DNA from: an uncultured Rhodospirillales bacterium
GTDB taxonomy: Bacteria; Pseudomonadota; Alphaproteobacteria; ATCC43930; CGMCC-115725
Direction: 5' to 3'
Length of the DNA: 64,000 nt
NCBI GenBank assembly: GCA_903822185.1
Contig: CAIJOA010000028.1
Coordinates: forward strand, 124,001 to 188,000
A program made the position numbers and the translations under genes. Below are positions 16,875 through 60,773 of this stretch, piece by piece. The notes under the pieces were generated by a model. That model was not told the DNA's origin. It worked only from the letters and a program-made list of their open reading frames with translations, and did not search any database. Positions within the stretch are counted from its first letter, which is position 1. Each line of letters begins with the position of its first letter.

Positions 16875-17855
16875 ATGGCTATCCACATCAATGCGCGACG
16901 CTGCTCGGCCGCGATCGTCGCGACGTTCGCGCTAATGACGGCAGCGATGTCGAATGCTGCCGCAGGCGACACCATCACGGTCGGCAAGTCGGTCGCGACC
17001 GCATGGCCTTTCACGCCGATCGACGTCGGCGTCGAACTCGGCTTTTTCAGAGAGCACGGCTTCGACAAGGTGGAGATCGTGTCGTTCGGCGGCGACGCCA
17101 AGTTGCAACAAGGGCTGCTGACCAAGGATATCGATTTCGGTCTCGCCTCGGGACCCGGCATGGCATTCAGCGCTAAGGGCGGCGGCGGGATATCCATCGC
17201 AGCCTATCTGCTTGCGCCGCGTAATCTGGGTATCGCAGTTCCCGAGGATTCGACGATGACCGTGGCGGATTTCAAAGGCAAGAAGCTCGCCGTTTCGACA
17301 CCCGGCTCGCTGACCTATTGGCTGGTCCAACGGCTGTCGGACAAGATGGGCTGGGGCGTGGACGGAATTACGCCCGTCGCGCTGGAAGCGCCGCAGGCCC
17401 GATTTGCTGCGCTTCAAACTCATCAAGTCGATGGCATCGTGAACTCGACGGAACTGACCTTCTCGTTGCAGCAGAAAGACCGGGTCAAAGAAATATATAA
17501 CTTTGCCGACCTCGTCCCGAAGTTCATCACCGACGTCGTCGTGGCCCGTAAAGAACTCGTTGCGGATAACCCGGAGATGGTCCGGCGTTTCGCAGCCGCA
17601 TGGCTCGAAACGACCGAGTACATGCACACGCATAAAGATAAGACGGTCGAGATTACCGCCCGTGTCCTTAATCATTCCACCGAACTGATGGCGCGGATCT
17701 ACGATTGGGAAATGCCGGAATTTTCGCACACGGATCGCTTCGATCCGGAGGCAGTCGCGCTGTTGAAACAGAGTTTCATCGATACAAAGGTGCTGGATCG
17801 AACGCCCGCCGATAGCGAGCTATTTACCGAAGCCTTCCTGCCGAAGTCGAAGTGA
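16875..17855 (+). CDS. ABC-type solute-binding protein (NMT1/SsuA-like)
   Basis: 326 residues with an N-terminal signal peptide (residues ~1-30, ending NAAAG), so it is periplasmic. The two-lobed NMT1/SsuA pattern is present: a start on ITVGKSVA, GVELGFFREHGFD, GGDAKLQQ, GPGMAFSAKGG, FKGKKLAVSTPGS, and a C-terminal DSELFTEAF. The family binds sulfonates, pyrimidine precursors or aromatic acids. It is a paralogue of the proteins at 22552 and 36993. No permease or ATPase gene accompanies it. GGGGGAAG precedes the ATG. It is convergent to the amidohydrolase and ends 5 bp from it. Confidence 0.88.
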   Translation: MAIHINARRCSAAIVATFALMTAAMSNAAAGDTITVGKSVATAWPFTPIDVGVELGFFREHGFDKVEIVSFGGDAKLQQGLLTKDIDFGLASGPGMAFSAKGGGGISIAAYLLAPRNLGIAVPEDSTMTVADFKGKKLAVSTPGSLTYWLVQRLSDKMGWGVDGITPVALEAPQARFAALQTHQVDGIVNSTELTFSLQQKDRVKEIYNFADLVPKFITDVVVARKELVADNPEMVRRFAAAWLETTEYMHTHKDKTVEITARVLNHSTELMARIYDWEMPEFSHTDRFDPEAVALLKQSFIDTKVLDRTPADSELFTEAFLPKSK

Positions 17856-30988: not shown

Positions 30989-31957
30989 TCACCGTAAGCG
31001 AAATACCTTCTCGGCATTGCCGCCAAGCATCAGCGCCTTGTCTTCGGCGGTGATCGGCAGGCTTTCGACATGACCAGGACCGTGCGCCGTATAAGGATAA
31101 TCGGTGCCGAACATCATATGATCGCGTCCGACATAGTTATGCGCCAGCATGAGGGCGTTCTGATCGATCGCGCAGGAATCGTAATAAAGATTCTTGGCAT
31201 ATTCCTCGAACGGTCGGTTCTTCATTTTCTCGCGTGCGACCGGCTGGCTGCGTGGAATCGCCTGCAGCCGGTTCATAATCGCCAGCATGCCCGCACCCGT
31301 ATGAGCGACGATGAACTTCATATCCGGGTTCCTCGCGAAGACACCGTTGAGGATCATACGCGTCACGCAGATCTGGGTCTCGAAGAAGAACCCCATCATC
31401 AGCGACAGATTATATTCCGGCAGATCATCGGCAAAGGGCGGGAAATTCGGATGCTCGACGACCGCCATCTTGTGATGATTGATGCGCGCCCAGACGGGTT
31501 CGAACCGCTCGTCAGACAGCGGCACGCCATTGACGTTGGAGCCGACCGAGATGCCGCAGACCTCGGGCATGGCGGCAATGCGATCGATTTCCTTGACCGA
31601 CGCCGGGACATCGTCGAGCGGCAGACTGGCCAAGGCGCGAATTCGGTCCGGGAACATCCGCGCACGATCGACCACCTCGTCATTGGCGATGACCGCGACT
31701 TCGGCCTGCATCTCCTTCGGGAAGATGTAGAGATTGGGCGTGGTGAGCGAGATCAGCGACATATCGATGCCGCGCTTGTCCATCTCGCCGATGTGATGAC
31801 GCGGATCGTACCACTCGGGATTGATATTGATGATGGTCTCGCCGTCTTTCAAAAGGCCAAGGCCGTATTGGCTCGGCGCCGTCGTGACGCCCGGAATCTT
31901 CATCATCGCCTCGTAATAGGCGCGTCCGATGATGTGCGCGTGTACATCGATCTTCAT
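30989..31957 (-). CDS. ACMSD-type amidohydrolase (metal-dependent decarboxylase or hydrolase)
   Basis: 322 residues, TIM-barrel amidohydrolase_2 family. Metal ligands visible: H6-x-H8 (DVHAH), H169 (VEHPN), H219 (VAHTGAG) and D286 (FGTDYPY). The pattern matches 2-amino-3-carboxymuconate-6-semialdehyde decarboxylase and related zinc enzymes. It is the last gene of a tight four-gene minus operon with two Rieske oxygenases and an alpha/beta hydrolase (gaps 10-13 bp). A decarboxylation or hydrolysis step on a ring or ring-cleavage product is the natural reading; the substrate is unknown. Confidence 0.9.
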   Translation of the reverse strand: MKIDVHAHIIGRAYYEAMMKIPGVTTAPSQYGLGLLKDGETIININPEWYDPRHHIGEMDKRGIDMSLISLTTPNLYIFPKEMQAEVAVIANDEVVDRARMFPDRIRALASLPLDDVPASVKEIDRIAAMPEVCGISVGSNVNGVPLSDERFEPVWARINHHKMAVVEHPNFPPFADDLPEYNLSLMMGFFFETQICVTRMILNGVFARNPDMKFIVAHTGAGMLAIMNRLQAIPRSQPVAREKMKNRPFEEYAKNLYYDSCAIDQNALMLAHNYVGRDHMMFGTDYPYTAHGPGHVESLPITAEDKALMLGGNAEKVFRLR

Positions 31958-31970
31958 GCTGTGGTCTTTC

Positions 31971-33158
31971 CTAATTGCCGCTCGCCGGCGCGTCGGTCAT
32001 CTCGGCCCATAGCCGATCCGGCCGCTTCCATTGCTGCAACGGGCGCCCTGCCGCGAAGGCCTGAAGCTCTTGCTTCCACAACCGCCGCAGCAGCGCAATC
32101 GCGACATCGGTCTGGCCCAGCATTTCCTTATGCTCGCGCGTCGCCATCGGGCCTAGGCTCGTCATCACGGTACAATCCTGCACCTGAACGAGCTGACCGC
32201 CGCCGATCGACCGGTTTTCCTTGATCGCGGCGAAGTCCGTCGTCCCGTCGATGATCGATTGCGCGATAGCCGGAACCTGTCCCGCCTGCTGCGTCATCCC
32301 CAGCGCCTCGCCACGTTTTTTGAAGGCCTCGGCTTCTTCGGCCTTCAGCGGGTAAATCCGTAGATCGAAACGGATATGCGATTCGTCGTCGCGCGGGATG
32401 CGCCAGCTGCGCGCGAAAGCCCCGACCTTCTCGCCGTTCAAGGGCGGCACCGCCCATTCATGCGTATTGGGCATAGTGAAAATCATCGTGTCGTAGGCCG
32501 ACAAGCCGCCGCTGAGACCCGGCACGCTGACGCGAATACCGAATTCCGTCTGATCGACGTTGACCCGTTGCGGCGTTTTGAAATGGAAATGCCAATGCAG
32601 GAATTCGGTATGAGCGTAGTCGATCGAATTTTCGAGCTGCGCCCAGTAATTCGCGTTCCACGTTCCCGTTGTCAGTAAAGTCACATACGCGCTGTTCTCG
32701 AATTCGGGAAAGCGCTCGAACACCGGCGGCTCGCCATCGCCGAGATAGGCGAAGATCAAACCGAGATATTCCTCGATCGGATAGGCCCGCACCTTGACCT
32801 TGTCGCAGAAGGGACGCGGCTCTGCCGGCTGCTTCACGCATTGGCCCGTGCCGTCATAGGCCCAGCCGTGATAGGCGCATTTGATGTCGTTGCCCTCAAC
32901 CCAGCCGACCGACAGCTTCGCGCCGCGATGGGCGCAACGCGCCTCGAGCATGCGCGCGATGCCGTCCTCGCCGCGAAATAGCGTGAAATCCTCACTCATG
33001 ATACGGACGGGCTTGGCCTTGCCTTTCAGCAGATCGACACCGCGATACACCGGTTGCCAGAAAGAGCGCAGGTAGCGTCCGGCGATGGTGTCGGGTCCAG
33101 TTCGTAGGAAATCATGAAAGGTGATATCGATGTCGCGGGTTTCGTTCATGTCGGGCAT
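31971..33158 (-). CDS. Rieske non-heme iron oxygenase alpha subunit-like
   Basis: 395 residues. The Rieske [2Fe-2S] site is C75-x-H77 and C94-x-x-H97; the mononuclear iron motif follows as ENSIDYAHTEFLHWHF (His at the second and third positions). The N-terminus TFHDFLRTGPDTIAGRYLRSFW matches the phthalate-dioxygenase/aromatic-demethylase branch. It is about two-thirds identical by eye to the gene just upstream, a tandem duplication. The ATG at 33158 has AGGAAG upstream, 10 bp after the neighbour's stop. No ferredoxin or reductase gene is encoded nearby. Confidence 0.93.
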   Translation of the reverse strand: MPDMNETRDIDITFHDFLRTGPDTIAGRYLRSFWQPVYRGVDLLKGKAKPVRIMSEDFTLFRGEDGIARMLEARCAHRGAKLSVGWVEGNDIKCAYHGWAYDGTGQCVKQPAEPRPFCDKVKVRAYPIEEYLGLIFAYLGDGEPPVFERFPEFENSAYVTLLTTGTWNANYWAQLENSIDYAHTEFLHWHFHFKTPQRVNVDQTEFGIRVSVPGLSGGLSAYDTMIFTMPNTHEWAVPPLNGEKVGAFARSWRIPRDDESHIRFDLRIYPLKAEEAEAFKKRGEALGMTQQAGQVPAIAQSIIDGTTDFAAIKENRSIGGGQLVQVQDCTVMTSLGPMATREHKEMLGQTDVAIALLRRLWKQELQAFAAGRPLQQWKRPDRLWAEMTDAPASGN

Positions 33159-33168
33159 GATTTTCTTC

Positions 33169-34383
33169 CTATTCCGCGGCGTTGCCGGTGGGGGCCATGG
33201 CGTCCCACAAGGATGATGGCCGCTGCCAATCGCGCAGTTCGCGGCCGGCGGCAAATGCCTGCAGTTCTTGTTTCCACAAGCGGCGCAGATGCAAGATGCC
33301 GAGATCGGTCTGGCCTAGCATTTCTTTATGGTCGCGGCTTGCCATCGGCCCCATGCTGGTCATGACCGTGCAATCCTGAATCGTGGTCAGAAACGGGCCG
33401 CTGTAAGTCGTTGGATCATCCTTGATCATCTGCAGGTCCATCTCGCCCGAAATGATCTTCTGCGCCACCTCGCCGGTCTTGCCTTGGTCACGCGGCGGAT
33501 TGCGCTCAACGACCTTGTCGCGAAAAGCCGCATCGTTTTTGTCGCCAAATGGGAAGGCGCGGTAATCGAAGCGTATATGTGATTCATCGTCGAGCGGGAT
33601 ACGCCAGCTGCGTGCAAAATTTCCCATCGTCGGGTCTTTTCCCGGCGGCCCGGCCCATTCATGCATATTCGGCATCACCAGATACATCGTGTCGTAATCG
33701 ATCGAGGTATCGCTGAGGCCCGGCACGCAGACCTTCACGCCATACTTGGTTTCGTTGACGTCGATCCGCGACGGCGTCTTGAAATGAAAATGCCAATGCA
33801 GGAATTCGGTATGGGCATAGTCGATTGCGTTTTCGAGCTGCGTCCAATAGTTCGCCGGCCAAACGTCGGTGGTCAGCAGGGTGAAATATTTATCGCCTTC
33901 GAATTCCGGCGAGCGCGGAAAAACCGGCGGCTCTCCCTCACCCAGATACGCGAAGATCAGGCCCAGATATTCTTGGACCGGATAAGCCCGTACCTTGACC
34001 TTGTCGCAGAACGGGCGGGGCTCTGCCGGCTGCTTCACACATTGCCCGACGCCATCGTAAGCCCAGCCGTGATAGGCGCATTTGATGTCGTTGCCCTCGA
34101 CCCAACCGACCGAGAGCTTCGCGCCGCGATGGGCGCAACGTGCCTCCAACATCCGAATCGCGCCGTCCCCTCCGCGGAACAGCACGAAGTCCTCGCTCAT
34201 GATGCGCACCGGCTTCGCCTTGCCGACCGGCACGTCCTCGGCACGATGAACCGGCTGCCAGAACGAGCGCAGATAGCGGCCGCCGATCGTGTCCGGCCCG
34301 GTGCGCAGGAAATCGTGATAGGTGATCTCGGGGCCGGGATGGTTATGGCCGAGCGACGGCGTGGTCGAAGGGGCTTCGGTCAT
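33169..34383 (-). CDS. Rieske non-heme iron oxygenase alpha subunit-like
   Basis: 404 residues. Rieske ligands C83, H85, C102 and H105; mononuclear iron motif around NAIDYAHTEFLHWHF (H191 and H196). It is the closest paralogue of the next gene and differs mainly in the C-terminal substrate-pocket half, which suggests two related substrates or two successive positions of attack. It needs an external electron-transfer partner. The ATG at 34383 lies 10 bp after the alpha/beta hydrolase stop, while a longer in-frame start would overlap that gene and is rejected. Confidence 0.93.
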   Translation of the reverse strand: MTEAPSTTPSLGHNHPGPEITYHDFLRTGPDTIGGRYLRSFWQPVHRAEDVPVGKAKPVRIMSEDFVLFRGGDGAIRMLEARCAHRGAKLSVGWVEGNDIKCAYHGWAYDGVGQCVKQPAEPRPFCDKVKVRAYPVQEYLGLIFAYLGEGEPPVFPRSPEFEGDKYFTLLTTDVWPANYWTQLENAIDYAHTEFLHWHFHFKTPSRIDVNETKYGVKVCVPGLSDTSIDYDTMYLVMPNMHEWAGPPGKDPTMGNFARSWRIPLDDESHIRFDYRAFPFGDKNDAAFRDKVVERNPPRDQGKTGEVAQKIISGEMDLQMIKDDPTTYSGPFLTTIQDCTVMTSMGPMASRDHKEMLGQTDLGILHLRRLWKQELQAFAAGRELRDWQRPSSLWDAMAPTGNAAE

Positions 34384-34393
34384 GGATGTCTCC

Positions 34394-35209
34394 TTACGAT
34401 TGCGCGTGGGACGGTGCGCGCAAAAAATCTTCGACGAGGCGGAAGGTCCGCGCGCGTCTGTCGCGTTGCGGCCAGTGACCGCATTGCTGCAGCACGTGCA
34501 TTTCCGCATTGCGCATCAGATGAAGCATCGCCAGCCCGCGTTCCGGCGTGGCCGACGGATCATCCGCGCCCCAGATCAGTAGGCTCGGGATCGTCAAACG
34601 ATGCAGTTCGCCGTAAAGCGACGGCGGGCGCGGCGCTAACCGGCGTTGCCGTTCGGCCTCGGCATTCTTGCCGCTGCTGGCCTCACAGAACTGCTGCACA
34701 AGCTCGTTGGTCAATTGGTCGCGGTTCACGAGGACGAGCGACAGCAATGCACGGGCATTCTCGAACGTCGGTGTGTATTCCTGCACCACTGCGCCGACAG
34801 TCGGCCGCGCCGGATCGCGCGGCGCCGCCTGTGGCGGCAGTACGTTGCTGGGCATAATGACGAGCCGTTCGACGCGCGGATCCGCCAGCGCGATCGACGC
34901 GCCGATATAAGTGCCCATCGAGCAGCCCCAGATCGCGTAGCGATCCGGATTGACGAAATCGATGAAGGCGCGCGCGTGCGCGATGCGCGCCTCGATCGCA
35001 AAATCCGTCGGATTGTCGGTGAGGCCATAGCCGGCCAGATCCGGCGCATAGACCGAATAGCCGGCACGCGCGAAATGATCGACCGTCGAGGCGAACTCGA
35101 TCGCGGCGGTCGATCCTGGAAGCTGCCCATGCAACAGGAACAGCGCCGGGCCTGATCCAGCGTGGTGATAATGAGTGTTGAGTCCGGCAATCGTAGCGAA
35201 GTGGGACAC
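34394..35209 (-). CDS. Alpha/beta hydrolase (meta-cleavage C-C hydrolase-like)
   Basis: 271 residues. Catalytic triad: S97 in GCSMG, D216/D217 in IWGADDPSATPE, and H245 in QQCGHWPQ; oxyanion HGQLPGST near residue 27. The H-W after the catalytic His and the overall layout recall MhpC/BphD hydrolases that split ring-cleavage products. It is the first gene of the four-gene operon with two Rieske oxygenases and an ACMSD-like protein. It could instead be an esterase; no extradiol dioxygenase lies in the same operon. Confidence 0.85.
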   Translation of the reverse strand: MSHFATIAGLNTHYHHAGSGPALFLLHGQLPGSTAAIEFASTVDHFARAGYSVYAPDLAGYGLTDNPTDFAIEARIAHARAFIDFVNPDRYAIWGCSMGTYIGASIALADPRVERLVIMPSNVLPPQAAPRDPARPTVGAVVQEYTPTFENARALLSLVLVNRDQLTNELVQQFCEASSGKNAEAERQRRLAPRPPSLYGELHRLTIPSLLIWGADDPSATPERGLAMLHLMRNAEMHVLQQCGHWPQRDRRARTFRLVEDFLRAPSHAQS

Positions 35210-41620: not shown

Positions 41621-42487
41621 ATGGATAATTTTCCCAACTTCGATCCTAACCCGCGCAAACCGATCATCGCGCCGCCGCCGCTAACGTGCGACAGCCAGGT
41701 ACATTACTTCACAAAGTCGCCGCGCTTTCCGCAGATTCAAAATCCATCCTACCCGGCGCCGGATGCGACGCTCGACGATGTCCTGAAGATGCACCGCACG
41801 CTGGGAATCGACCGCGGTGTGCTGGTTCATCCCATCCCATACGGCACAGACAACAGCCTTTTGTTCGAAGTGCTGAAGCAGGCCGGACCAAATTATCGCG
41901 GTATCGCGGTCATCAACGATGACGTCAGCGACAAAGAGCTGCAGCGGATGCATGACGCGGGCGTGCGGGGAGTTCGATTCAGCTTTCTGCGCGTCTTGAA
42001 CATTCGGCCCCGCGCGGAACTGTTTCAACGCACGCTGGAACGCATCGCGCCCATGGGTTGGTGCGTAAAAGTCCATTTCGGCGGCGAGGAAGTGTTCGAG
42101 CTGGAGCCGACCTTACGATCGGCGAAAATTCCGCTGGTCATCGACCATATCGGCGGCACGAATATCGGCCTTGGCCTCGACCAACCGGCCTTCCAGCTTC
42201 TGCTGAAGCTGATGCGCGAACCGAATATCTGGATGATGCTGTCGAACGGCGACCGCAATTCGGCGACCGGTTACCCCTGGGACGACACGATACCCTTTGC
42301 CGAGGCTTTGATGGCGGTTGCACCCGACAGTCTGGTCTGGGGCACGGACTGGCCGCACGTTCGTTATTTCCAGAAAATGCCGAACGATGGCGACCTGCTG
42401 GAACTGGCCTATCGCTACATGCCAGATCCCGCAATGCGCCAGCGCATCCTGGTGGATAACCCGGCGCGGCTGTTCGGTTTTATCTGA
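41621..42487 (+). CDS. Amidohydrolase, 2-pyrone-4,6-dicarboxylate lactonase-like
   Basis: 288 residues, TIM-barrel amidohydrolase_2. The usual N-terminal HxH reads Q26-V-H28 (CDSQVHYF), so the first metal ligand is replaced. Further signature residues are in VKVHFGG, VIDHIGG and the WGTDWPHV aspartate. The LigI-like lactonase group hydrolyses lactones of aromatic catabolism with little or no metal, which would fit. It is the third gene of the cluster, 15 bp after the aldolase. Confidence 0.87.
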   Translation: MDNFPNFDPNPRKPIIAPPPLTCDSQVHYFTKSPRFPQIQNPSYPAPDATLDDVLKMHRTLGIDRGVLVHPIPYGTDNSLLFEVLKQAGPNYRGIAVINDDVSDKELQRMHDAGVRGVRFSFLRVLNIRPRAELFQRTLERIAPMGWCVKVHFGGEEVFELEPTLRSAKIPLVIDHIGGTNIGLGLDQPAFQLLLKLMREPNIWMMLSNGDRNSATGYPWDDTIPFAEALMAVAPDSLVWGTDWPHVRYFQKMPNDGDLLELAYRYMPDPAMRQRILVDNPARLFGFI

Positions 42488-43812: not shown

Positions 43813-44274
43813 CTAACATGCAGATCGGGATCACGCCACCCTATGCGATAAATTTCATGTGCATGATTCTAAACACCATGAAAGATAGGAATCTAAGTAT
43901 CGATGGTTTTGATTGCCGTACCGACTCGCGTCTTTATCCTTGCCGACCGATTCCAATCAGTGAACCCCTCGGTCGAGATGACATTGGGATCGGGTACGCT
44001 TCTCACTTATACAAGCGATCGGTGTGCAGCCTATGCGTGAATAGCATTGCCAGCTTGTCACCTCACTCGCGAAATAGGCGAAAGCATCTTCCCAAAAATC
44101 GTTAGTAGGCGCATCGCATTTAACGCCGTCGCGACGACGGGTCATGTGGCACGAGCCTTTCGCTTATTGCCTTGTTCTCTAGACACGCGTATGGAAGTGG
44201 AAACGGCAATGCGGCGCCCCACCCGTCAGGTTCGGCGGTGCCCGCGGAAGCCTGACCATGGGAGGCTTGCGGGC
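43813..44274. other. Intergenic region between MarR and the next cluster
   Basis: No gene is recognisable in about 460 bp. The composition is lower in GC than the genes around it. An inverted repeat TTTCATG (43853-43859) / CATGAAA (43877-43883) could be a second regulator site or a mere chance pairing. The GGGAGG for the following gene is at 44260-44265. Confidence 0.45.
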
Positions 44275-45270
44275 ATGAGGATCGGGATCACTGTTTGGAT
44301 TGGGCTGACAGCCGTTCTTGCCGCCAAGACCGCGTTCGCTGAAGACACCTCGCTCGCCCTGCCCTCCATAACTCCGGGTTTCACGGCCATCTATGTTGCC
44401 GAGGACCGTGGCTTTTGGCGTGATCAGGGACTGACGGTCAAAGTCTCGCAGATTGCCGGTGTCGGCACGATCAATGCCGTCATCGCCGGCAGCATCGATT
44501 TTTCGGGCAGTACCGCCGGAACCTTGATCCGCGCCGCCGCGGCCGGGCAAAGAATGATGGCCATCGCCAACCTGACCGACAGGCCGATGGACGAGATCGT
44601 GCTGCGCAAGGATGTCGCCGCCCGCCTGAATTTCGATGCCAAAGCACCGCTCGTCGAACGGGCTGCATTGCTCAAGGGCCTCAATATCGCCGTCGATGCG
44701 ATCAACACGATCAATCATGGCTTCCTGCGCTACGTCGCCAAGAAGGGCGGGCTCGACCCCGACCGCGATATCACCGTCGCACCGATGCAATCGCCCACCA
44801 TGGCGGCGGCCTTGGTGTCGAAGGCGATCGACGGCATGTCGATATCGGTGCCTTGGACGACGGCCGTCGTGGTTGATGGCAACGCCGTGACGCTGGCCAG
44901 TGTTCCCAACGGCGACTTCCCCGAGCTTCGGCCTTTCGGTGGCGGGCTGATCGTCACCCGCCCGACCTTCTGCACCGAGAAGCACAGCATCTGCGTCGCC
45001 ATGGGCCGCGGCATCGTCGCCGCCAACCGCTTCATTCAGGAACATCCGGATGAGACACTGGCCATTATCAAGCCGCGCTTCCCACAGCTTAGCGAGGTAA
45101 CGCTAGCGACCGCGCTGCAGAATTACCGGTCCGCCTCGCCCGTACCGCCTGCGGTTACCCCGGCGGTGCTGACCAATTCCCAGACCTTCGAGGTCAATGG
45201 CGGGTTGACCAAACCGGAAAACGTGCTGAAATCCTATGATGGGATGTTCACCGACGAGTTCGTCCGCTGA
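44275..45270 (+). CDS. ABC-type solute-binding protein (NMT1-like)
   Basis: 331 residues with a signal peptide (residues 1-22, ending KTAFA). Mature part: SLALPSITPGFTAIYVAED, GVGTINAVIAGSIDFSGS, a cysteine pair in TFCTEKHSIC, and the tail KSYDGMFTDEFVR. It is a clear paralogue of the protein at 47160, with the same cysteine pair and the same tail. The ATG at 44275 follows GGGAGG; a longer in-frame start is rejected. It pairs with a VOC gene 19 bp downstream. Confidence 0.9.
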   Translation: MRIGITVWIGLTAVLAAKTAFAEDTSLALPSITPGFTAIYVAEDRGFWRDQGLTVKVSQIAGVGTINAVIAGSIDFSGSTAGTLIRAAAAGQRMMAIANLTDRPMDEIVLRKDVAARLNFDAKAPLVERAALLKGLNIAVDAINTINHGFLRYVAKKGGLDPDRDITVAPMQSPTMAAALVSKAIDGMSISVPWTTAVVVDGNAVTLASVPNGDFPELRPFGGGLIVTRPTFCTEKHSICVAMGRGIVAANRFIQEHPDETLAIIKPRFPQLSEVTLATALQNYRSASPVPPAVTPAVLTNSQTFEVNGGLTKPENVLKSYDGMFTDEFVR

Positions 45271-47159: not shown

Positions 47160-48179
47160 TCAGTGCAAGAATTCCTCGGTGAATAGACCGTCATAGGATT
47201 TGACCTGATCTTCTGGCTTCATCAGTCCCGCCTCGACATTGAGACGGTCGGCATTCGCCAATTCGATCGCGTTGATGCCCGGCATCAGCGGCGTCGCGTC
47301 CGTGATCTCGGCAAGCGACCGTTCCAGCGCGGCGACGCTGATATCCTTGTAGCGTTCTTTGAGGAAGCCCAGCGTCTCGTCAGGATGCTCATGGATGAAA
47401 TGCGCCGCTGCAATCATTGCGTGGCCGACCTTCGTGCAGATCGAGGCGTGTTCCTTGCAATAATCCGGACGGGTCACGACGACGTTGTAGGCGAAGGGCG
47501 TGATGCCCGGCGGGTCGCCATTGAGGCCGCTCGCGATCAGCACAGCCTTGCCCTCGGTAATGACTTTCTCTGGCCAGGGCGGGCCGAACGAGAAGCCATC
47601 GATCGCCTTGCGATCGAGAGCGGCCAGCATGTCGGCCGGCTGCAACGGCGCGACGACGACCTTCTCGGGATCGTAGCCGCCTGCCTTGGCGACGACGCGA
47701 AGATAGGCATGGACGATCGAGTTGATGGAATCGACACCCATCGTCCGGCCCAGCAGCATCTGCGCCCGCGCCGCCAACGGCGCCTTGGGATCGAAATGAA
47801 TCGCCTCGGCCACGTCTTTACGCAGGATGACCTCGCCGGGCAGCTTGTCGATCGTGTTAGCGATGGCGAGCATCCGCTGACCGTGCGCCGCCGCGCGATT
47901 GAGAGTCAGGCCGCTCGACATCGAGAAGTCGGCGCTGCCGGACACTACCGCGTTAAAGGCCCCGACGCCGGTCACGAGAATGACGTTCGCGTCGAGGCCT
48001 TCTTTTTCATAAAGATGCGCCGCCTCGGCGACATAGTCCGACAAGAAGATCAGCGCCAGGGCCGGCAGCGCGATTGTCACCTTCTCGGTCGCCGCCCGTG
48101 CTGGGGTAGCCAGGTTGAGCAGTAAGACCAACGCCAGGATTGCAGACAGTCTCGTCGCGACCGTACCGATGCTACGCAT
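47160..48179 (-). CDS. ABC-type solute-binding protein (NMT1-like)
   Basis: 339 residues with a signal peptide (residues ~1-29, ending TPARA). Mature part: VTIALPALALIFLSDYVAE, GVGAFNAVVSGSADFSMSSG, a cysteine pair in DYCKEHASIC, and the tail KSYDGLFTEEFLH. It is a paralogue of 44275. The ATG at 48179 follows GGGGAGG. It lies 39 bp after the two-domain VOC gene. No permease or ATPase is present. Confidence 0.9.
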   Translation of the reverse strand: MRSIGTVATRLSAILALVLLLNLATPARAATEKVTIALPALALIFLSDYVAEAAHLYEKEGLDANVILVTGVGAFNAVVSGSADFSMSSGLTLNRAAAHGQRMLAIANTIDKLPGEVILRKDVAEAIHFDPKAPLAARAQMLLGRTMGVDSINSIVHAYLRVVAKAGGYDPEKVVVAPLQPADMLAALDRKAIDGFSFGPPWPEKVITEGKAVLIASGLNGDPPGITPFAYNVVVTRPDYCKEHASICTKVGHAMIAAAHFIHEHPDETLGFLKERYKDISVAALERSLAEITDATPLMPGINAIELANADRLNVEAGLMKPEDQVKSYDGLFTEEFLH

Positions 48180-48218: not shown

Positions 48219-49454
48219 TTATCCGAGCGGTCCCAGCAGCGTTTCGCCGTCGAAGGAATCCGATTTTGCCTCGACTGTCTCGGGCCATTTGTCGTTATCG
48301 ACCTTGGTCCGCGCCGACGCGGGGCGCGCCTTCCCGTCCCAACCGAGCTGTTCCATGTAGTAGTAAAGCTGAACCAGGTGGCCATCGGGATCGACGGCGA
48401 AGGCCGAATAGTCGATACCGGGGAACAATTCGGGCGGCAGGTATTTGATCGTGACGCCGCTGGCCTTAAGGAAATCGACAGCATTGCGAAGCTGCTGATA
48501 ATCGCCGAGTTGATTTCCGAAGCTCATGCAGGTCGTGTGCGGGGAGAGTCCAAGCTTCTCGCGCAGCGCGATCGGATAGAGCGCCAGCGAATGATGCTCG
48601 GTGTTGCAGCGTAGGAAGACGCAGCGATGCCCCTGATACGTCACTTCCTCGGTGATGCGCAGGCCCATCGTGCCCGTGTAGAAAGCGAGACACTTCTCCA
48701 TGTCTTTGACGAACAGCCGCACCGGTCCGATCTTGATGACCTTGAACGGCCGGGCCAGCATCACGCCGCCGACATCGTATTTGAACGGCCCCTTCTCGAC
48801 ATGGCGGAAGCCCTCGCCGAGATCCATGCCCTCGCCCTTGAACATCTCGAGTTCCTGGTACTCGCACATCTGCGGCAGCGACGGCTTGTCATCGAAGCGG
48901 CGCTTGCGCACGCCCGGCGGCTTGGCGCGCAGGTCCCAACCGATCTGCTCGATACCGTAATAGATTTCGTTGGTATGGCCTTCCGGATCGGGCGGATAGG
49001 AATGCCAGTTGGAGCCGGGCACGTCGCGTCCGATGCGGCCCGGATTAACGCCGATGGACTTGAACCAGTCGATGCCGTCACCGACCTCGCGCAACGTGCC
49101 GACCTGCCAGGTGATCTGGTTGGTCGTGATCTCGGGATTGAAGGGACCATGGCCTTGCGCCATCTGGTCCATCGCCCGCTTCGGGAAAAGAACATGCGAG
49201 TGATGGTCAGTGCCATGGCTGGTGAAATACCCAACCGTAGAACCGAGCCCATCCAACGCACCGGGCGGCCGGACCTTGGCAAAGTCGAGCATGTCGGTGA
49301 TGCGGAAGCCGAGAAGATCACGATAGAACGCGATCCCGTCTTCCATGTTGGTCATGTTGTAACCGAAATGCCCGAGGCGCCGGATCTTGAACGGCCGGTC
49401 CAACAAGACCCCGCCGACACTGAACTTACCGCCCACTTTCGTGATGCCATCCAT
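48219..49454 (-). CDS. Two-domain VOC protein (catechol 2,3-dioxygenase-like)
   Basis: 411 residues, two VOC modules: the first starts RPFKIRRLGHFGYN and ends HTNEIYYGIEQ; the second starts RPFKVIKIGPVRLFV and ends HLVQLYYYMEQ. This is the architecture of extradiol ring-cleavage dioxygenases, but the expected metal triad is incomplete in both halves (only H and E are clear in the first, and the second begins without the His). It may therefore be a diverged or different VOC enzyme. GGAGGGAA precedes the ATG. First gene of a minus-strand module with a solute-binding protein and an MFS transporter. Confidence 0.85.
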   Translation of the reverse strand: MDGITKVGGKFSVGGVLLDRPFKIRRLGHFGYNMTNMEDGIAFYRDLLGFRITDMLDFAKVRPPGALDGLGSTVGYFTSHGTDHHSHVLFPKRAMDQMAQGHGPFNPEITTNQITWQVGTLREVGDGIDWFKSIGVNPGRIGRDVPGSNWHSYPPDPEGHTNEIYYGIEQIGWDLRAKPPGVRKRRFDDKPSLPQMCEYQELEMFKGEGMDLGEGFRHVEKGPFKYDVGGVMLARPFKVIKIGPVRLFVKDMEKCLAFYTGTMGLRITEEVTYQGHRCVFLRCNTEHHSLALYPIALREKLGLSPHTTCMSFGNQLGDYQQLRNAVDFLKASGVTIKYLPPELFPGIDYSAFAVDPDGHLVQLYYYMEQLGWDGKARPASARTKVDNDKWPETVEAKSDSFDGETLLGPLG

Positions 49455-49607: not shown

Positions 49608-50141
49608 CTATTTGGCGGCTGTCTGTTTCACACCGAAATTCTGGTCGAGATAGGTGACGATGCTCGTCACCTGATCGCCCGAAATCGGCGAGCCGTAGAA
49701 GACCATCCGATTGACGATCTTTTCCCATTGATCCTTAGACCGGTTGGTCGCCGCCACGCGATCGACGCCATGGCACAGCGCGCAACCGCCCTCGACCAAT
49801 TCCTTGCCCGCGCCATCCGGCAGCTTTACGTCCACCGGCTGTTGATTGGGGAACGGCACGCCCGGACCGAAAGACGTCGCCAGATATTTGGTGGCAGCGT
49901 CGATGTCGTTCGGTCCGATCTGCGCGCCGCGCAGCACCATGTCATAGATCTGATTGCGCCAGCCGGCTTCGTTCATCCGAAGCTGGGTGATCGCATTCGG
50001 CGCATGACATTGCGTGCAGGCGACAGCGACGATCTCGCGACCCGGCCCTTCGGGGAAAGGATTGCCCTGTTGTGCCTGAGCCGACATCGCAACGCCGAAG
50101 GTCGTAGCCACGAAGGCGATCGCTAAAATGAGCTTTCTCAT
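49608..50141 (-). CDS. Secreted two-heme cytochrome c
   Basis: 177 residues: signal peptide (1-23, ending SAQA), then two covalent heme sites CTQCH (42-46) and CALCH (120-124), each with a downstream Met candidate for the sixth ligand (M68 and M146). The two halves look like duplicated class I domains. It acts in the periplasm as an electron carrier. The ATG at 50141 lies 2 bp after the stop of the Tat-exported ThDP enzyme, so the pair is translationally linked and the cytochrome is probably its electron acceptor. Confidence 0.92.
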   Translation of the reverse strand: MRKLILAIAFVATTFGVAMSAQAQQGNPFPEGPGREIVAVACTQCHAPNAITQLRMNEAGWRNQIYDMVLRGAQIGPNDIDAATKYLATSFGPGVPFPNQQPVDVKLPDGAGKELVEGGCALCHGVDRVAATNRSKDQWEKIVNRMVFYGSPISGDQVTSIVTYLDQNFGVKQTAAK

Positions 50142-50143
50142 GA

Positions 50144-52048
50144 TCAAACCTTCCGCGTACGCATATCGGCGATGGAGAACGGCGGATACCATTCCGAGGC
50201 CGCACCGACACCGGCGCGATCGACATGGATGTCCAACAGATAAGGCCGGCCCTCGATGTTGGCCCGCTTGGCGCGGCCGAGCGCATCCTGGATTTTGCCC
50301 GGCTCGATAACGACCTCGGCTTCGACGCCGAAGGCTTCCGACGCCTTGGCGTGATTGACGTCGGGGCTGCCGTTGTAACAGGTCATGTCCTTGCCGGTCT
50401 TGAACTGTTGTCCGGCGATGAAGGTCCAGATTCGGTTGCGCTCGTTGTTGTAGCTCATGTTGTTGACGACGATATTCGTCACCGGCGCCTTGTAGCGCGA
50501 CTGGCTCCACAGCGGCTGCGGGCCGCCGAACATGAAGCTGCCGTCGCCGACGCACGAGACGACCGGACGATCCGGCCGCGCCAGCTTGGCGCCCATCGCC
50601 GCAGCGACGCCCCACCCGAGGATGTTCGGCCCGGTCGAGATGTAGGACTTGTCCGCACCGCCCCACGCGAGGAACGGGTCCATCGAACGGCCGGAATCGC
50701 AATCCGACACATAGATGGTGTCTTTCTCGAGCCCTTTTTCGAGCTCGACGCCCAGCCGTACCATGTTGATCGAGTTGCCGCTGCCGGCGTCTTTGTCGGT
50801 CGCCATCGCCTGACGCAGCTTGGCCATACCGGCGCTGTACTCGCCCGCGCGTCCGGCGCGGCCATCGGCGATCTGCTTCAGCTTCTCCTTCGTCGCCATC
50901 GCCTTGACGGCGGTGATGATGTCGGCGACGCCGAGTTTGATATCCGAAACCAGCGGCATGTTCACCGGCCAGGCACGCGCGAGGCCAGTCGGATCGCGAC
51001 GCATCGAGATGAGAGTCGTTCCCTGCATCTGCTTTTCGGCACCCTGATCGCCGATGTTGAAATGCACATCGACCGGACCGGGGAAGCGCATGTTGCGTAC
51101 GAAGGCGCCGATGAACAGCGGATGCTTGGTCGGGAACGGCTTCGACCAGTTGCCCTGCCCGCCTTGGCCGGCAACCGGAATGCCCAGCAGCTCGGCGAGC
51201 TGCAGCACTTCCATCTCGGCCTGGCACATCGTCACTTCGTCGCCGACGGTGATCAGCGGGTTCTTCGCCTCGATCAACATCTTGGCGACGGCCTCGGTAT
51301 CCTTTTGATCCGGTCGAATGCGCATCGGGACGCTGAACAGTTTCTTGTCATAGACCTGCGCGGTGGCTTGCGCCTTCAGCAGATCGTCGGGGATCGACAG
51401 GAAGACTGGACCGGACGGCGGCGTCGTCGCGAACTTCAGCGCGCGGCGCGTCACGTCAGCAATGCCCGCGGTCGATTCAGCGACCCAGAACCATTTGGTG
51501 ATCGGCTGGAGCATCGGCTCCTGGTGATCGTAATCCTGCGCGTAATCGCGGCCCGCCGTTTCGGTGCCGAACGCGGCAACGGTCAGCAGGACCGGAATCT
51601 GATCCTTCCAGCTATTGACCAATTGGGTCATGCCGTTCGGCAAGCCGACATTGGCGATATGGGCCACGCCGACATTGCCCGAGAGCCGCGCATAGCCATC
51701 GGCCATGGCGACAACGGCGCCTTCCTGGATGCCCTTGATGAGCTGGATTTCGGGCACATCGACCGCGGCATCATAGAACGGCGCATCGCCGGTCGAAGGA
51801 TTGAAGAACATATATTTAACGCCGGCGGACTTGAGCTGCTGCATGTACAGCATGCCGCCATTGCCCTTCACCTCGCGGATGCCGTCGGTGCCGCCCGGCG
51901 CCGCGGCCTGCGCCATGGCGGGCGTCGGCGCGAAGGAATCGGCCAGGGTCTTCGCAGCCACGCCACTGACGCCGACGGCGCTGAGGCCGCGCATCAACTG
52001 CCGGCGCGAGATTCCGCTGTCGAGATACTTCTTGAGTAGGTCTTTCAT
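50144..52048 (-). CDS. Tat-exported thiamine-diphosphate-dependent enzyme
   Basis: 634 residues. A twin-arginine signal is present (S14-R15-R16-Q17-L18-M19-R20, hydrophobic stretch, AMA-QA cleavage near 46), unusual for this family, which is normally cytoplasmic. The remainder is a full acetolactate-synthase/benzoylformate-decarboxylase-type enzyme: the cofactor-activating E109 in GIQEGAVVAMADGYAR and the ThDP/Mg motif GDG (501-503) to NN (529-530). It should decarboxylate or oxidise a 2-oxo acid or similar compound in the periplasm, passing electrons to the two-heme cytochrome encoded next. A divergent gamma-resorcylate-decarboxylase-like gene lies 152 bp away. Confidence 0.92.
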   Translation of the reverse strand: MKDLLKKYLDSGISRRQLMRGLSAVGVSGVAAKTLADSFAPTPAMAQAAAPGGTDGIREVKGNGGMLYMQQLKSAGVKYMFFNPSTGDAPFYDAAVDVPEIQLIKGIQEGAVVAMADGYARLSGNVGVAHIANVGLPNGMTQLVNSWKDQIPVLLTVAAFGTETAGRDYAQDYDHQEPMLQPITKWFWVAESTAGIADVTRRALKFATTPPSGPVFLSIPDDLLKAQATAQVYDKKLFSVPMRIRPDQKDTEAVAKMLIEAKNPLITVGDEVTMCQAEMEVLQLAELLGIPVAGQGGQGNWSKPFPTKHPLFIGAFVRNMRFPGPVDVHFNIGDQGAEKQMQGTTLISMRRDPTGLARAWPVNMPLVSDIKLGVADIITAVKAMATKEKLKQIADGRAGRAGEYSAGMAKLRQAMATDKDAGSGNSINMVRLGVELEKGLEKDTIYVSDCDSGRSMDPFLAWGGADKSYISTGPNILGWGVAAAMGAKLARPDRPVVSCVGDGSFMFGGPQPLWSQSRYKAPVTNIVVNNMSYNNERNRIWTFIAGQQFKTGKDMTCYNGSPDVNHAKASEAFGVEAEVVIEPGKIQDALGRAKRANIEGRPYLLDIHVDRAGVGAASEWYPPFSIADMRTRKV

Positions 52049-52200
52049 GTACGTCTCTCCCCCTTTCGCCGCCCCGTGGAATCCGACATTCGCCGGGTGG
52101 GCAACGACTGTAGGCCAAGATGCCCTTTTTTTGGGCCTGCCGCAACGTGGATTGCAGTGGGAAATCTGGGTATGAGTCCGGAAATCAGGGAGGAATCGGC

Positions 52201-53181
52201 ATGCGGATCATCGCTATCGAAGAGCATATGACCACCCCGCTCTATAACGAGCACAACGTGCCGACGCCGCGGCGCCTCAACTCGATGCGCCACCGGCGTG
52301 AGTTGCTGGGCCACGACGTCGAGGAAGAACTGCTCGACGTTTCCAACAGCCGCGTCGCCGCCATGAACGAGGCCGGCATCGACTTCCAGATGCTGTCGAT
52401 GACCATGCCCGGCCCGCAGGGACTTCCCACCGCCGAAGCCGTTGCCGTGGCGCTCGACGCCAATGAACGCATGGCCGACGCGATGCGCACCCACCCCACC
52501 CGTTTCGGCGCGTTCGCCTGCCTGCCGACACCCGATGTCGCCGCCTCGGTGAAGGAGCTGGAGCGCACGGTGACGAAGCTCGGCTTCAAAGGCGCGATGA
52601 TCAACGGCCACACCAACGGCGAATTCCTCGACAACAAGAAGTTCTGGCCGATCTTCGAAGCGGCCCAGGCGCTGGACGTGCCGGTCTATATGCACCCGCG
52701 CGACCCGCATCCCTGCTCCAAGCCCTATTTCGAGGGTTATCCCGAGATCGCCAGCGCCGCCTGGGGCTTCACGATGGACACCGTCGCGCATTTCCTGCGC
52801 CTGTGCTTCGCCGGCGTGTTCGAGACCTTTCCCAATCTCAAATTCATGCTTGGCCATAACGGCGAAGGCATTCCCTTCTATCTCGACCGGCTCGAGAACC
52901 ACACCGCCATCGGGATGAAGGAACACGGCTTCAAGAAGACGATCACCGACGTGATGATGCAAAACGTCATTGTCACGACGAGCGGCAATTTCTCGGTGCC
53001 GGCGTTGATGTGTACGGTCGCCGTACTCGGCATCGACCGCGTGATTTTCTCGGTCGATTGGCCTTATGAATCGAATAAGATGGGCGTCGAATTCCTCAAC
53101 AGCCTGCCGCTCAGCGCCAGCGACAAGGAAAAGCTGGCGCACGGTAATGCCGAGAAGCTGCTGGGCTTGCCGACCGCCTAA
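52201..53181 (+). CDS. Amidohydrolase, gamma-resorcylate decarboxylase/ACMSD-like
   Basis: 326 residues. The N-terminal IAIEEHM with E8, then H165 (VYMHPRD), H219 (LGHNGEG) and D286 (FSVDWPYE), is the metal-ligand pattern of 2,6-dihydroxybenzoate (gamma-resorcylate) decarboxylase and relatives, which decarboxylate phenolic acids without oxidation. The ATG at 52201 follows GAGGAAT. It diverges from the ThDP-enzyme/cytochrome operon. The substrate is inferred to be a phenolic acid, not shown. Confidence 0.9.
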   Translation: MRIIAIEEHMTTPLYNEHNVPTPRRLNSMRHRRELLGHDVEEELLDVSNSRVAAMNEAGIDFQMLSMTMPGPQGLPTAEAVAVALDANERMADAMRTHPTRFGAFACLPTPDVAASVKELERTVTKLGFKGAMINGHTNGEFLDNKKFWPIFEAAQALDVPVYMHPRDPHPCSKPYFEGYPEIASAAWGFTMDTVAHFLRLCFAGVFETFPNLKFMLGHNGEGIPFYLDRLENHTAIGMKEHGFKKTITDVMMQNVIVTTSGNFSVPALMCTVAVLGIDRVIFSVDWPYESNKMGVEFLNSLPLSASDKEKLAHGNAEKLLGLPTA

Positions 53182-59894: not shown

Positions 59895-60773
59895 ATGGAT
59901 AAATTCATCATCGGGCCGCATTTCCGTTTGCAGGAATGGGTGGCGGAAGAAAAAGGCTATTTCCGCGATGAGGGGCTCGATTACGAGTTCCAGGAAACCA
60001 TGCCATCGACCAGCGGCGCGGCGCATCACCTTGGCAATCAAGTCGGCGCGTTTCAAACCATCGAGGCCGGCCGTACCTGCAACATCTCCGGCGCCTGTCA
60101 TTGGACGGTCAATGTCGCCGCCTCGTCGGGACACGGCAAGCTCTATGCCGATGCCTATTCGGTTTCGCCGGCCGGCGTGTTCGTACCGGCTGATTCACCG
60201 GTCAAGGAACCCAAGGATCTCGCCGGCGTGCCGATCTCGGTCGGTTATCAATCCGGGAGCCATTACGCGACGATCCAGGCGCTTGAGCAATATATGCCCC
60301 TCGCCGATATCAAACTTTCTTTCGCCGATGGCTTGCTGTTCAGCCGCATGGAAATGCTGTTCGATCGCAAAGTGCCCGCAGTGTCTGTCTTCAGCGGTCC
60401 GTACTACTTCATGGAACAGTTGGGTTTCCGCAAAATCATCGACAGCACTTTCATGATGGCGATGAGCGTCAACGGAAACCCCGATATGGAAGACGTGCGG
60501 AAATATTATAAAGCCTTGCGGCGCGCACAGCGCGACATCGACCTGCGGCCCGAGCTTTATACGCATTATTACAAGAAAGAATTTCCGCTGCGCTTTCACG
60601 ACATGATGGACACGCGCCGGTGGGGTCCGGGTGAACGGATCGTGTTCGAGCCCTACACCAAGGAAGTCTTCGAGGAATCCCAGCGATGGATCGCCGCACG
60701 CGGCATCTTCCCCGACGGCAATTTGGGCAGCGGCGATTACGACGCCTCCATCATCACCCTGGCCGCCGAATAG
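59895..60773 (+). CDS. NMT1/SsuA-like solute-binding-fold protein without signal peptide
   Basis: 292 residues. The N-terminus begins straight with the first strand (MDKFIIGPHFRLQEWVAEEK, then GYFRDEGLDYEF), so it is probably cytoplasmic, unlike the other ten solute-binding proteins here. A clear GAGGAGG fixes the ATG at 59895. Other features: AGRTCNISGACHWTVNVAAS, DLAGVPISVGYQSGSHYAT, PYYFMEQLGFRKIID. Cytoplasmic NMT1-fold members include THI5-type pyrimidine synthases, and a sensor or enzyme role is equally possible. No operon partner. Confidence 0.8.
   Translation: MDKFIIGPHFRLQEWVAEEKGYFRDEGLDYEFQETMPSTSGAAHHLGNQVGAFQTIEAGRTCNISGACHWTVNVAASSGHGKLYADAYSVSPAGVFVPADSPVKEPKDLAGVPISVGYQSGSHYATIQALEQYMPLADIKLSFADGLLFSRMEMLFDRKVPAVSVFSGPYYFMEQLGFRKIIDSTFMMAMSVNGNPDMEDVRKYYKALRRAQRDIDLRPELYTHYYKKEFPLRFHDMMDTRRWGPGERIVFEPYTKEVFEESQRWIAARGIFPDGNLGSGDYDASIITLAAE

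Follow-up and report, generated by a model that had tools for sequence, protein, structure and literature searches.

A predicted twin-arginine thiamine diphosphate-dependent enzyme encoded beside a diheme cytochrome c in an uncultured Rhodospirillales bacterium

Textbook thiamine diphosphate (ThDP) chemistry takes place in the cytosol, and its electrons are passed to NAD-linked, ferredoxin, flavin, or quinone acceptors. PoxB, the pyruvate:quinone oxidoreductase once named pyruvate dehydrogenase (cytochrome), is a flavoprotein of the cytoplasmic side that reduces ubiquinone and carries a C-terminal membrane-binding helix. Pyruvate:ferredoxin oxidoreductase is cytosolic and relies on iron-sulfur clusters and coenzyme A. 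Benzoylformate decarboxylase (MdlC, referred to here as BFD) is cytosolic, contains no flavin, and has His70 and His281 among its catalytic residues. A different type of system is provided by the sulfite dehydrogenase SorAB of Starkeya novella, in which SorB is a dedicated electron-accepting subunit encoded by a gene adjacent to that of SorA. Here, we describe two adjacent genes in a 64,000-nucleotide stretch of DNA (the window) from an uncultured Rhodospirillales bacterium (assembly GCA_903822185.1, contig CAIJOA010000028.1, positions 124,001 to 188,000). They encode a ThDP-dependent enzyme with a predicted twin-arginine translocation (Tat) signal and a diheme cytochrome c. We regard it as moderately likely that they specify a two-component periplasmic dehydrogenase, in which a Tat-exported ThDP-dependent 2-oxo acid enzyme reduces the cytochrome.

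As in SorAB (2blf), a predicted exported cofactor enzyme is encoded in the window beside a small, dedicated cytochrome c, which is SorB-like by profile and fold. The catalytic subunit is, however, a ThDP enzyme and not the molybdopterin protein SorA, and the cytochrome differs from SorB by its two hemes and by a score below the SorB cut-off. The alpha subunit of quinohemoprotein amine dehydrogenase contains a diheme cytochrome domain related to the window cytochrome, but here again the catalytic neighbor in the window is a ThDP enzyme. With BFD and with the ThDP-dependent HKA synthase BbmA, the window enzyme shares the ThDP fold and the conserved Glu; it differs by a twin-arginine (RR) extension, a cytochrome partner, and the lack of His at the positions aligned with His70 and His281 of BFD. 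It would resemble PoxB in feeding electrons from a 2-oxo acid into respiration, but it is predicted to be periplasmic, has no evident motif for flavin adenine dinucleotide (FAD), and has cytochrome c as its proposed acceptor. Oxidation of a ThDP enamine in one-electron steps by a metal redox center would be a likeness to pyruvate:ferredoxin oxidoreductase, which differs by its iron-sulfur clusters, coenzyme A, cytosolic location, and partner proteins unrelated to those of the window. A full-text literature search (including PMC4103569, PMC6050957, PMC3306737, and PMC10356861), with a coverage excluding most subscription papers and all preprints, retrieved no exported or cytochrome c-coupled ThDP enzyme. 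The author of a preliminary description of the locus, made from the sequence alone, knew of no characterized precedent.

The ThDP-dependent enzyme and its cytochrome partner

The window protein matched Pfam families TPP_enzyme_N, TPP_enzyme_M, and TPP_enzyme_C, all three above the cut-off, and belongs to the ThDP superfamily (Table 1). An alignment was built from 14 full-length members of its family collected by similarity, not by motif (nine from clade I and five from clade II, both defined below). In all 14, the catalytic Glu (E109) and the ThDP/Mg motif (G501-D502-G503 and N529-N530) were invariant; the preliminary description of a complete ThDP enzyme had named these residues correctly. 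An RTRKV tail was also conserved at the C terminus of the family. The clade II copy at L024:2488-4386 lacks this tail, shows one internal TGA in its matches, and may be truncated.

The N-terminal extension of the enzyme carries a twin-arginine motif of the kind found in Tat substrates. Residues S14-R15-R16 were retained in 14/14 members, down to 35-37% identity, amid an otherwise divergent N terminus. The preliminary description had reasoned that close homologues without a Tat signal would betray a wrong start, and none of the 14 lacked S-R-R. Upstream of the ATG, the frame is open and contains no ATG, GTG, or TTG, and a ribosome-binding-site-like GGGGGAGAGA was recognized by eye ahead of this ATG. 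A wrong start codon creating a false Tat signal is ruled out by the absence of an earlier in-frame start together with the conservation of S-R-R in all 14 members.

The predicted model of the enzyme (pLDDT, 74.2; pTM, 0.77) displays, from about residue 60, a ThDP fold matching solved structures. In the PDB, BbmA matched best (Z, 41.0), followed by benzoylformate decarboxylases (Z, ~39); structures of acetolactate synthase (ALS) and pyruvate oxidase (Z, 38 to 39) were level with the latter. The fold of the model is BFD/ALS-like. It scored 190.2 bits against the NCBIfam model of benzoylformate decarboxylase (PRK07092), below the cut-off of 493. With BFD residues numbered by counting along the BFD/window alignment, Ser26 of BFD aligned with T86 and Glu47 with E109. 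The His70 column was occupied by A132 or by a gap, depending on the alignment, and the His281 column by Q340 in a shortened loop, the H281 loop of BFD not being retained. None of the 14 family members has His at columns 132 or 340 of the alignment. The RFDDR motif of the acetolactate synthase encoded by the same genome (L060), a motif of the FAD-binding type, aligned with GAEKQ in the window enzyme, from which RFDDR is absent. The window enzyme is probably FAD-free.

The secreted cytochrome that the preliminary description had noted 2 bp after the ThDP gene was recovered with that spacing and with both of its CxxCH motifs (CTQCH and CALCH, residues 42-46 and 120-124). A Met located 22 residues past each heme His (M68 and M146, candidate axial ligands) was present in 9/9 clade I relatives. 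Both motifs thus have the features of c-type cytochromes, with a spacing consistent with two His/Met hemes. The best NCBIfam match was SorB, with 64.4 bits over two stretches and a cut-off of 93. PF09098, the quinohemoprotein amine dehydrogenase-related domain, was passed (38.4 bits versus a cut-off of 25.2), whereas TIGR03908 was not (37.5 versus 274.35). The model of the cytochrome (mean pLDDT, 80.7; pTM, 0.65) had SorB (2blf_B) as its top PDB match (Z, 10.3; root mean square deviation, 3.1; 76 residues aligned), followed by a structure with a Z of 6.8; the Z for quinohemoprotein amine dehydrogenase (1jju_A) was 5.9. A sequence search of the PDB with the cytochrome alone gave no match, and a search of plasmids gave one weak match. 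Because SorB is a dedicated electron-accepting subunit, the window cytochrome, by analogy, looks more like a subunit than like a general, diffusible carrier.

Table 1. Positions of the gene pair, its parts, the adjoining genes, and two further ThDP-cytochrome units of the same genome
Feature	Position	Strand	Details and basis
RR-motif (predicted Tat) ThDP-dependent enzyme	50144..52048	minus	634 aa, ATG start; open reading frame, Pfam, alignments, model
Predicted twin-arginine signal peptide, about residues 1-50	51899..52048	minus	SRRQL at 14-18; possible AMA-Q cleavage site at 44-47 (by eye)
Gap between ThDP TGA stop and cytochrome ATG (50141)	50142..50143	minus	2 nt, operon-like
Secreted diheme cytochrome c, SorB-like	49608..50141	minus	177 aa; Sec-type signal by eye; profiles, model
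Two-domain VOC/extradiol-dioxygenase-like protein	48219..49454	minus	Downstream of cytochrome; similar protein near the L010 pair (by eye)
NMT1/SsuA-type substrate-binding protein	47160..48179	minus	Profiles
L058 ThDP-cytochrome unit	L058:6551-8882 (from contig C32 of the window's genome)		Cytochrome 13 nt downstream
L059 ThDP-cytochrome unit	L059:6150-8463 (from contig C14 of the window's genome)		Cytochrome 10 nt downstream

Distribution of the pair and of a second twin-arginine group

Clade I consists of nine loci at 64-75% identity, namely, that of the window and L009 (from an Acetobacteraceae metagenome-assembled genome), L010 (from a metagenome-assembled genome of the same genus), L011 (Bradyrhizobium sp. 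dw_411), L020 and L021 (both from the family of the window), and L045, L046, and L047 (from the family of L009). In 9/9 of these loci, a diheme cytochrome gene lies directly downstream of the ThDP gene, with gaps of -1 to +4 nt, while the flanking genes vary among the lineages compared (the flank of L046, on a contig of 3,562 nt, being short). Within the genus, the VOC protein, an MFS transporter, and the substrate-binding protein remain near the pair, as judged by eye. Where clade I flanks were compared, by eye and in part with profiles, no second dehydrogenase recurred beside the pair.

The cytochrome was searched for in 80 genomes, of which 43 belong to the order and 5 to the clade II family, the rest being the 5 other genomes with clade I and 27 negatives from the ThDP search of the family of L009. 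Strong matches (E, 3.4e-120 to 1.3e-48) were obtained in exactly the nine clade I genomes and in 0/71 of the others. Conservation of the pair at 9/9 loci, together with this distribution of the cytochrome, rules out a chance neighborhood. Five weak matches were found besides (E, 2e-8 to 6e-7); one is encoded immediately ahead of a clade II ThDP gene, and four, in genomes without clade I, lie beside SorA-like molybdopterin enzymes in neighborhoods of the SorA-SorB type (L053 to L056), for which SorA was the best family with all scores under its cut-off of 600. The divergence of the ThDP protein was moderately correlated with that of the cytochrome (r = 0.50, a value reached in 81 of 20,000 permutations), lending weak support to the coupling. 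The ThDP family itself is rare: with known positives included throughout, matches were found in 4/43 genomes of the order, in 3/385 of a class sample (the window's own genome and two with distant members), in 1/398 of a phylum sample (again that of the window), in 1/265 of Bradyrhizobium (the one already known), and in 4/299 of the family of L009 (one already known).

In the genome of the window, an RR motif is found in two additional ThDP genes, L058 and L059. Their products share 53% identity; between that of L058 and the window enzyme, the identity is 24%. The cytochromes encoded downstream are of the single-heme, CBB3/class I type. The top two plasmid matches of L058, from the betaproteobacterium Caballeronia zhejiangensis (L062) and from Novosphingobium sp. 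KACC 22771 (L063), likewise have an RR motif and, directly downstream, a cytochrome gene; in L062, a gene annotated "thiamine pyrophosphate-binding protein" (WP_244808613.1) is followed 8 nt on by a "c-type cytochrome" (WP_244808614.1). A CBB3/class I cytochrome thus directly follows the ThDP gene in 4/4 loci of this set, designated group B. No convincing similarity was detected between the cytochromes of L058 and of the window, which gave short matches only at the signal and heme motif.

Clade II, the sister of clade I, comprises five full-length RR-motif loci at 35-37% identity and two fragments, L035 and L036, that lose their N terminus at a contig end. At one of the full-length loci (L048:682-3208), in a genome that also carries a clade I pair, the RR-motif ThDP gene stands between genes for two single-heme cytochromes of different types, of 97 and 99 residues. 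The upstream one is a single-heme relative of the window cytochrome and can be aligned with either half of that diheme protein (35% over 68 residues and 28% over 67 residues).

Adjacent cytochromes were sought by a direct scan for CxxCH at 18 RR-motif loci, leaving aside the two fragments, and at 24 ThDP loci without the motif. The latter were 16 plasmid homologues, hand-picked from match lists, and 8 genes of the window's genome, which has 12 distinct ThDP genes: 3 with the motif, these 8 controls, and one outside the comparison (C17:180021-181667). For control L008, only 531 nt downstream were scanned. A c-type cytochrome gene was adjacent at 14/18 loci with the motif (clade I, 9/9; clade II, 1/5; group B, 4/4) and at 0/24 without it, a comparison for which the face value of a Fisher test is unsafe owing to the non-independence of related loci.

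In a tree of 39 sequences, the two RR groups were separate and their branches both starred; the sister group of group B was a set of 13 cytosolic enzymes. The columns used were those occupied in 30% or more of the rows, and signal-peptide columns may be among them; these would unite the RR rows, and yet the RR groups stay apart. Placement of the two groups suggests that the arrangement of an exported ThDP enzyme with a cytochrome arose more than once. The root was drawn for display only, and two gains of export in this sample would follow only from a root placed among the enzymes without the motif. Among the cytosolic sisters of group B, an aldehyde dehydrogenase gene adjoins the ThDP gene in 5/10 annotated plasmid loci (L067, L068, L070, L071, and L072, with one or two genes each, and not L065, L069, L073, L074, or L079). 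This suggests that the five are pairs of a 2-oxo acid decarboxylase and a dehydrogenase; in these, the dehydrogenase would carry out that two-electron oxidation with a different acceptor. No aldehyde dehydrogenase is annotated beside the Caballeronia pair, the only RR locus searched for one.

Proposed mechanism and competing explanations

Conservation of the pair argues for a coupling of the ThDP enzyme to the cytochrome, through which electrons would be transferred. In the mechanism that we propose, for which we infer export, a 2-oxo acid substrate, an oxidative outcome, absence of FAD, and direct enamine-to-heme transfer, the enzyme would bind ThDP and fold in the cytoplasm before being exported by the Tat pathway. 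In the periplasm, it would attack a 2-oxo acid, which might be an aryl-glyoxylate or some other acid product of aromatic degradation, leading to the release of CO2 and the formation of the ThDP enamine. This enamine would neither be protonated to an aldehyde nor transfer its electrons to FAD; the diheme cytochrome c would oxidize it in two steps, taking one electron in each. The acyl-ThDP would then be hydrolyzed to a carboxylic acid, and the cytochrome would hand the electrons to the respiratory chain. Extended to both RR groups, this mechanism would define an enzyme class of ThDP-dependent, FAD-free, periplasmic 2-oxo acid:cytochrome c oxidoreductases with direct passage of electrons from enamine to heme c. 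Cytosolic decarboxylases would have given rise to such enzymes on two or more occasions, each time acquiring a Tat signal and exchanging an NAD-dependent aldehyde dehydrogenase for a cytochrome c partner. We advance this extension tentatively, as possible but somewhat short of probable.

Several observations weigh against the proposed mechanism. No FAD-free ThDP enzyme is known to us to reduce a cytochrome c directly. No single substrate is conserved across the neighborhoods compared. Four of the five full-length clade II loci (two genomes, one family) lack an adjacent cytochrome gene, as do L035 and L036 in their available flanking DNA; at L035, the next gene encodes an aminotransferase. At L022:5018-8850 and L036:3-2538, the clade II ThDP gene is followed on the same strand by a gene for an RR-motif molybdopterin enzyme of the dimethyl sulfoxide reductase II type. 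These molybdoenzymes, partial at contig ends, score above the cut-off for PF00384, with TIGR03479 as best family and ethylbenzene dehydrogenase alpha as second-best, and could be either a redox partner or the sign of a non-oxidative ThDP enzyme in a pathway. In the active site, H130 of the window enzyme lies two residues off the His70 column of BFD and is not conserved, and the aligned group B rows have His at the His70 position both with and without the RR motif. Since group B keeps this His with and without Tat, its absence from the window family does not track oxidation, and the loss of His70 was dropped as a mark of oxidation. Finally, the NCBIfam model TAT_signal_seq (TIGR01409) was narrowly missed by the window protein (14.7 bits versus a cut-off of 16.7), and, of 17 N termini (L024 was left out), only four passed (L025, L047, L058, and L059), eight being below the cut-off and five giving no match. 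The interpretation given in the preliminary description is partly supported. Its RR motif was confirmed and is kept in 14/14 members, but the curated model narrowly rejects the Tat signal that it had assigned to the window protein. It had held that homologues without the neighboring cytochrome would speak against its interpretation, a periplasmic 2-oxo acid or aldehyde oxidase delivering electrons straight to the respiratory chain. Close relatives keep the pair (9/9), and the interpretation gained a second RR group with other cytochromes (4/4, including a betaproteobacterium), but four of the five full-length loci of the sister clade and two fragments are devoid of the partner.

Three other explanations were considered. 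The enzyme might be periplasmic and yet non-oxidative (a decarboxylase, carbon-carbon lyase, or carboligase), the cytochrome then serving another periplasmic dehydrogenase that oxidizes the released aldehyde or a neighboring metabolite. Decarboxylases and carboligases are indeed the nearest folds and profiles, group B enzymes with the RR motif retain a His at the His70 position of BFD, the aldehyde dehydrogenases beside the cytosolic sisters show that oxidation can be a separate step, and a periplasmic-type molybdoenzyme adjoins the ThDP gene in two clade II genomes. We nevertheless consider this explanation rather unlikely, as the cytochrome is the constant partner in clade I, no second dehydrogenase recurs in the flanks compared, and the cytochrome is closer to the dedicated subunit SorB than to a diffusible carrier. 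The electrons might also reach the cytochrome by way of a bound flavin or of some further, unlisted component, as in a relocated PoxB-like flavoenzyme. This would accord with a fold common to the FAD-containing acetolactate synthase and pyruvate oxidase, which tie with BFD in Z. It appears improbable given the alignment of RFDDR with GAEKQ and the presence among the nearest profiles of the flavin-free BFD. Least likely of all, to our mind, is an RR segment that is not a working Tat signal, with a cytoplasmic enzyme linked to the cytochrome by shared regulation only. The failure of the window protein and of 13/17 N termini in all to reach the TIGR01409 cut-off would fit this view. It is opposed by the retention of S-R-R in every family member in a divergent N terminus, by the four proteins that do pass, and by the absence of adjacent cytochromes from all 24 motif-less loci scanned. 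The RR motif is solid and the formal Tat score marginal; comparison argues for export of the ThDP enzyme.

The proposed dehydrogenase would be a two-part periplasmic enzyme with a new catalytic subunit and possibly represent a new enzyme class, if direct enamine-to-heme transfer is shown. Bacteria could then oxidize 2-oxo acids, perhaps lignin-type aromatic ones, without importing them, and electrons of organic acids would enter respiration by an undescribed route. Genes labeled only "thiamine pyrophosphate-binding protein" would acquire a function. The pair also offers a test case for reduction of heme c directly by a ThDP enamine, as opposed to reduction of an iron-sulfur cluster or flavin, and the Caballeronia pair, which comes from a cultured strain, is experimentally accessible.

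Genomic surroundings

Hints of aromatic acids were found near several of the loci: protocatechuate 4,5-dioxygenase genes at L047 (alpha subunit above the cut-off), a VanA-type Rieske oxygenase at L045, a UbiD family protein at L023, and the Rieske and VOC proteins of the window itself. Nothing comparable was noticed at L011 or L021, and aromatic acids as the substrate context are suggestive only. In the VOC protein next to the pair, the N-terminal half seems by eye to keep a His-His-Glu metal triad, in which the C-terminal half has Gln for Glu. Besides the NMT1-type substrate-binding protein of Table 1, others are encoded in the window at 16875-17855, 44047-45270, and 59895-60773, Rieske proteins are encoded at 31971-34509, and Amidohydro_2 proteins at 30989-31957, 41621-42487, and 52120-53181. 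Together, the NMT1-type, Rieske, and Amidohydro_2 genes form a catabolic island. At 5206-13930, on the minus strand, two long open reading frames overlap in different frames, the first listed with GH94 and a weak glucoamylase match and the other without a Pfam family; this region may encode a cyclic glucan synthase whose gene is interrupted by a frameshift, either real or due to sequencing.

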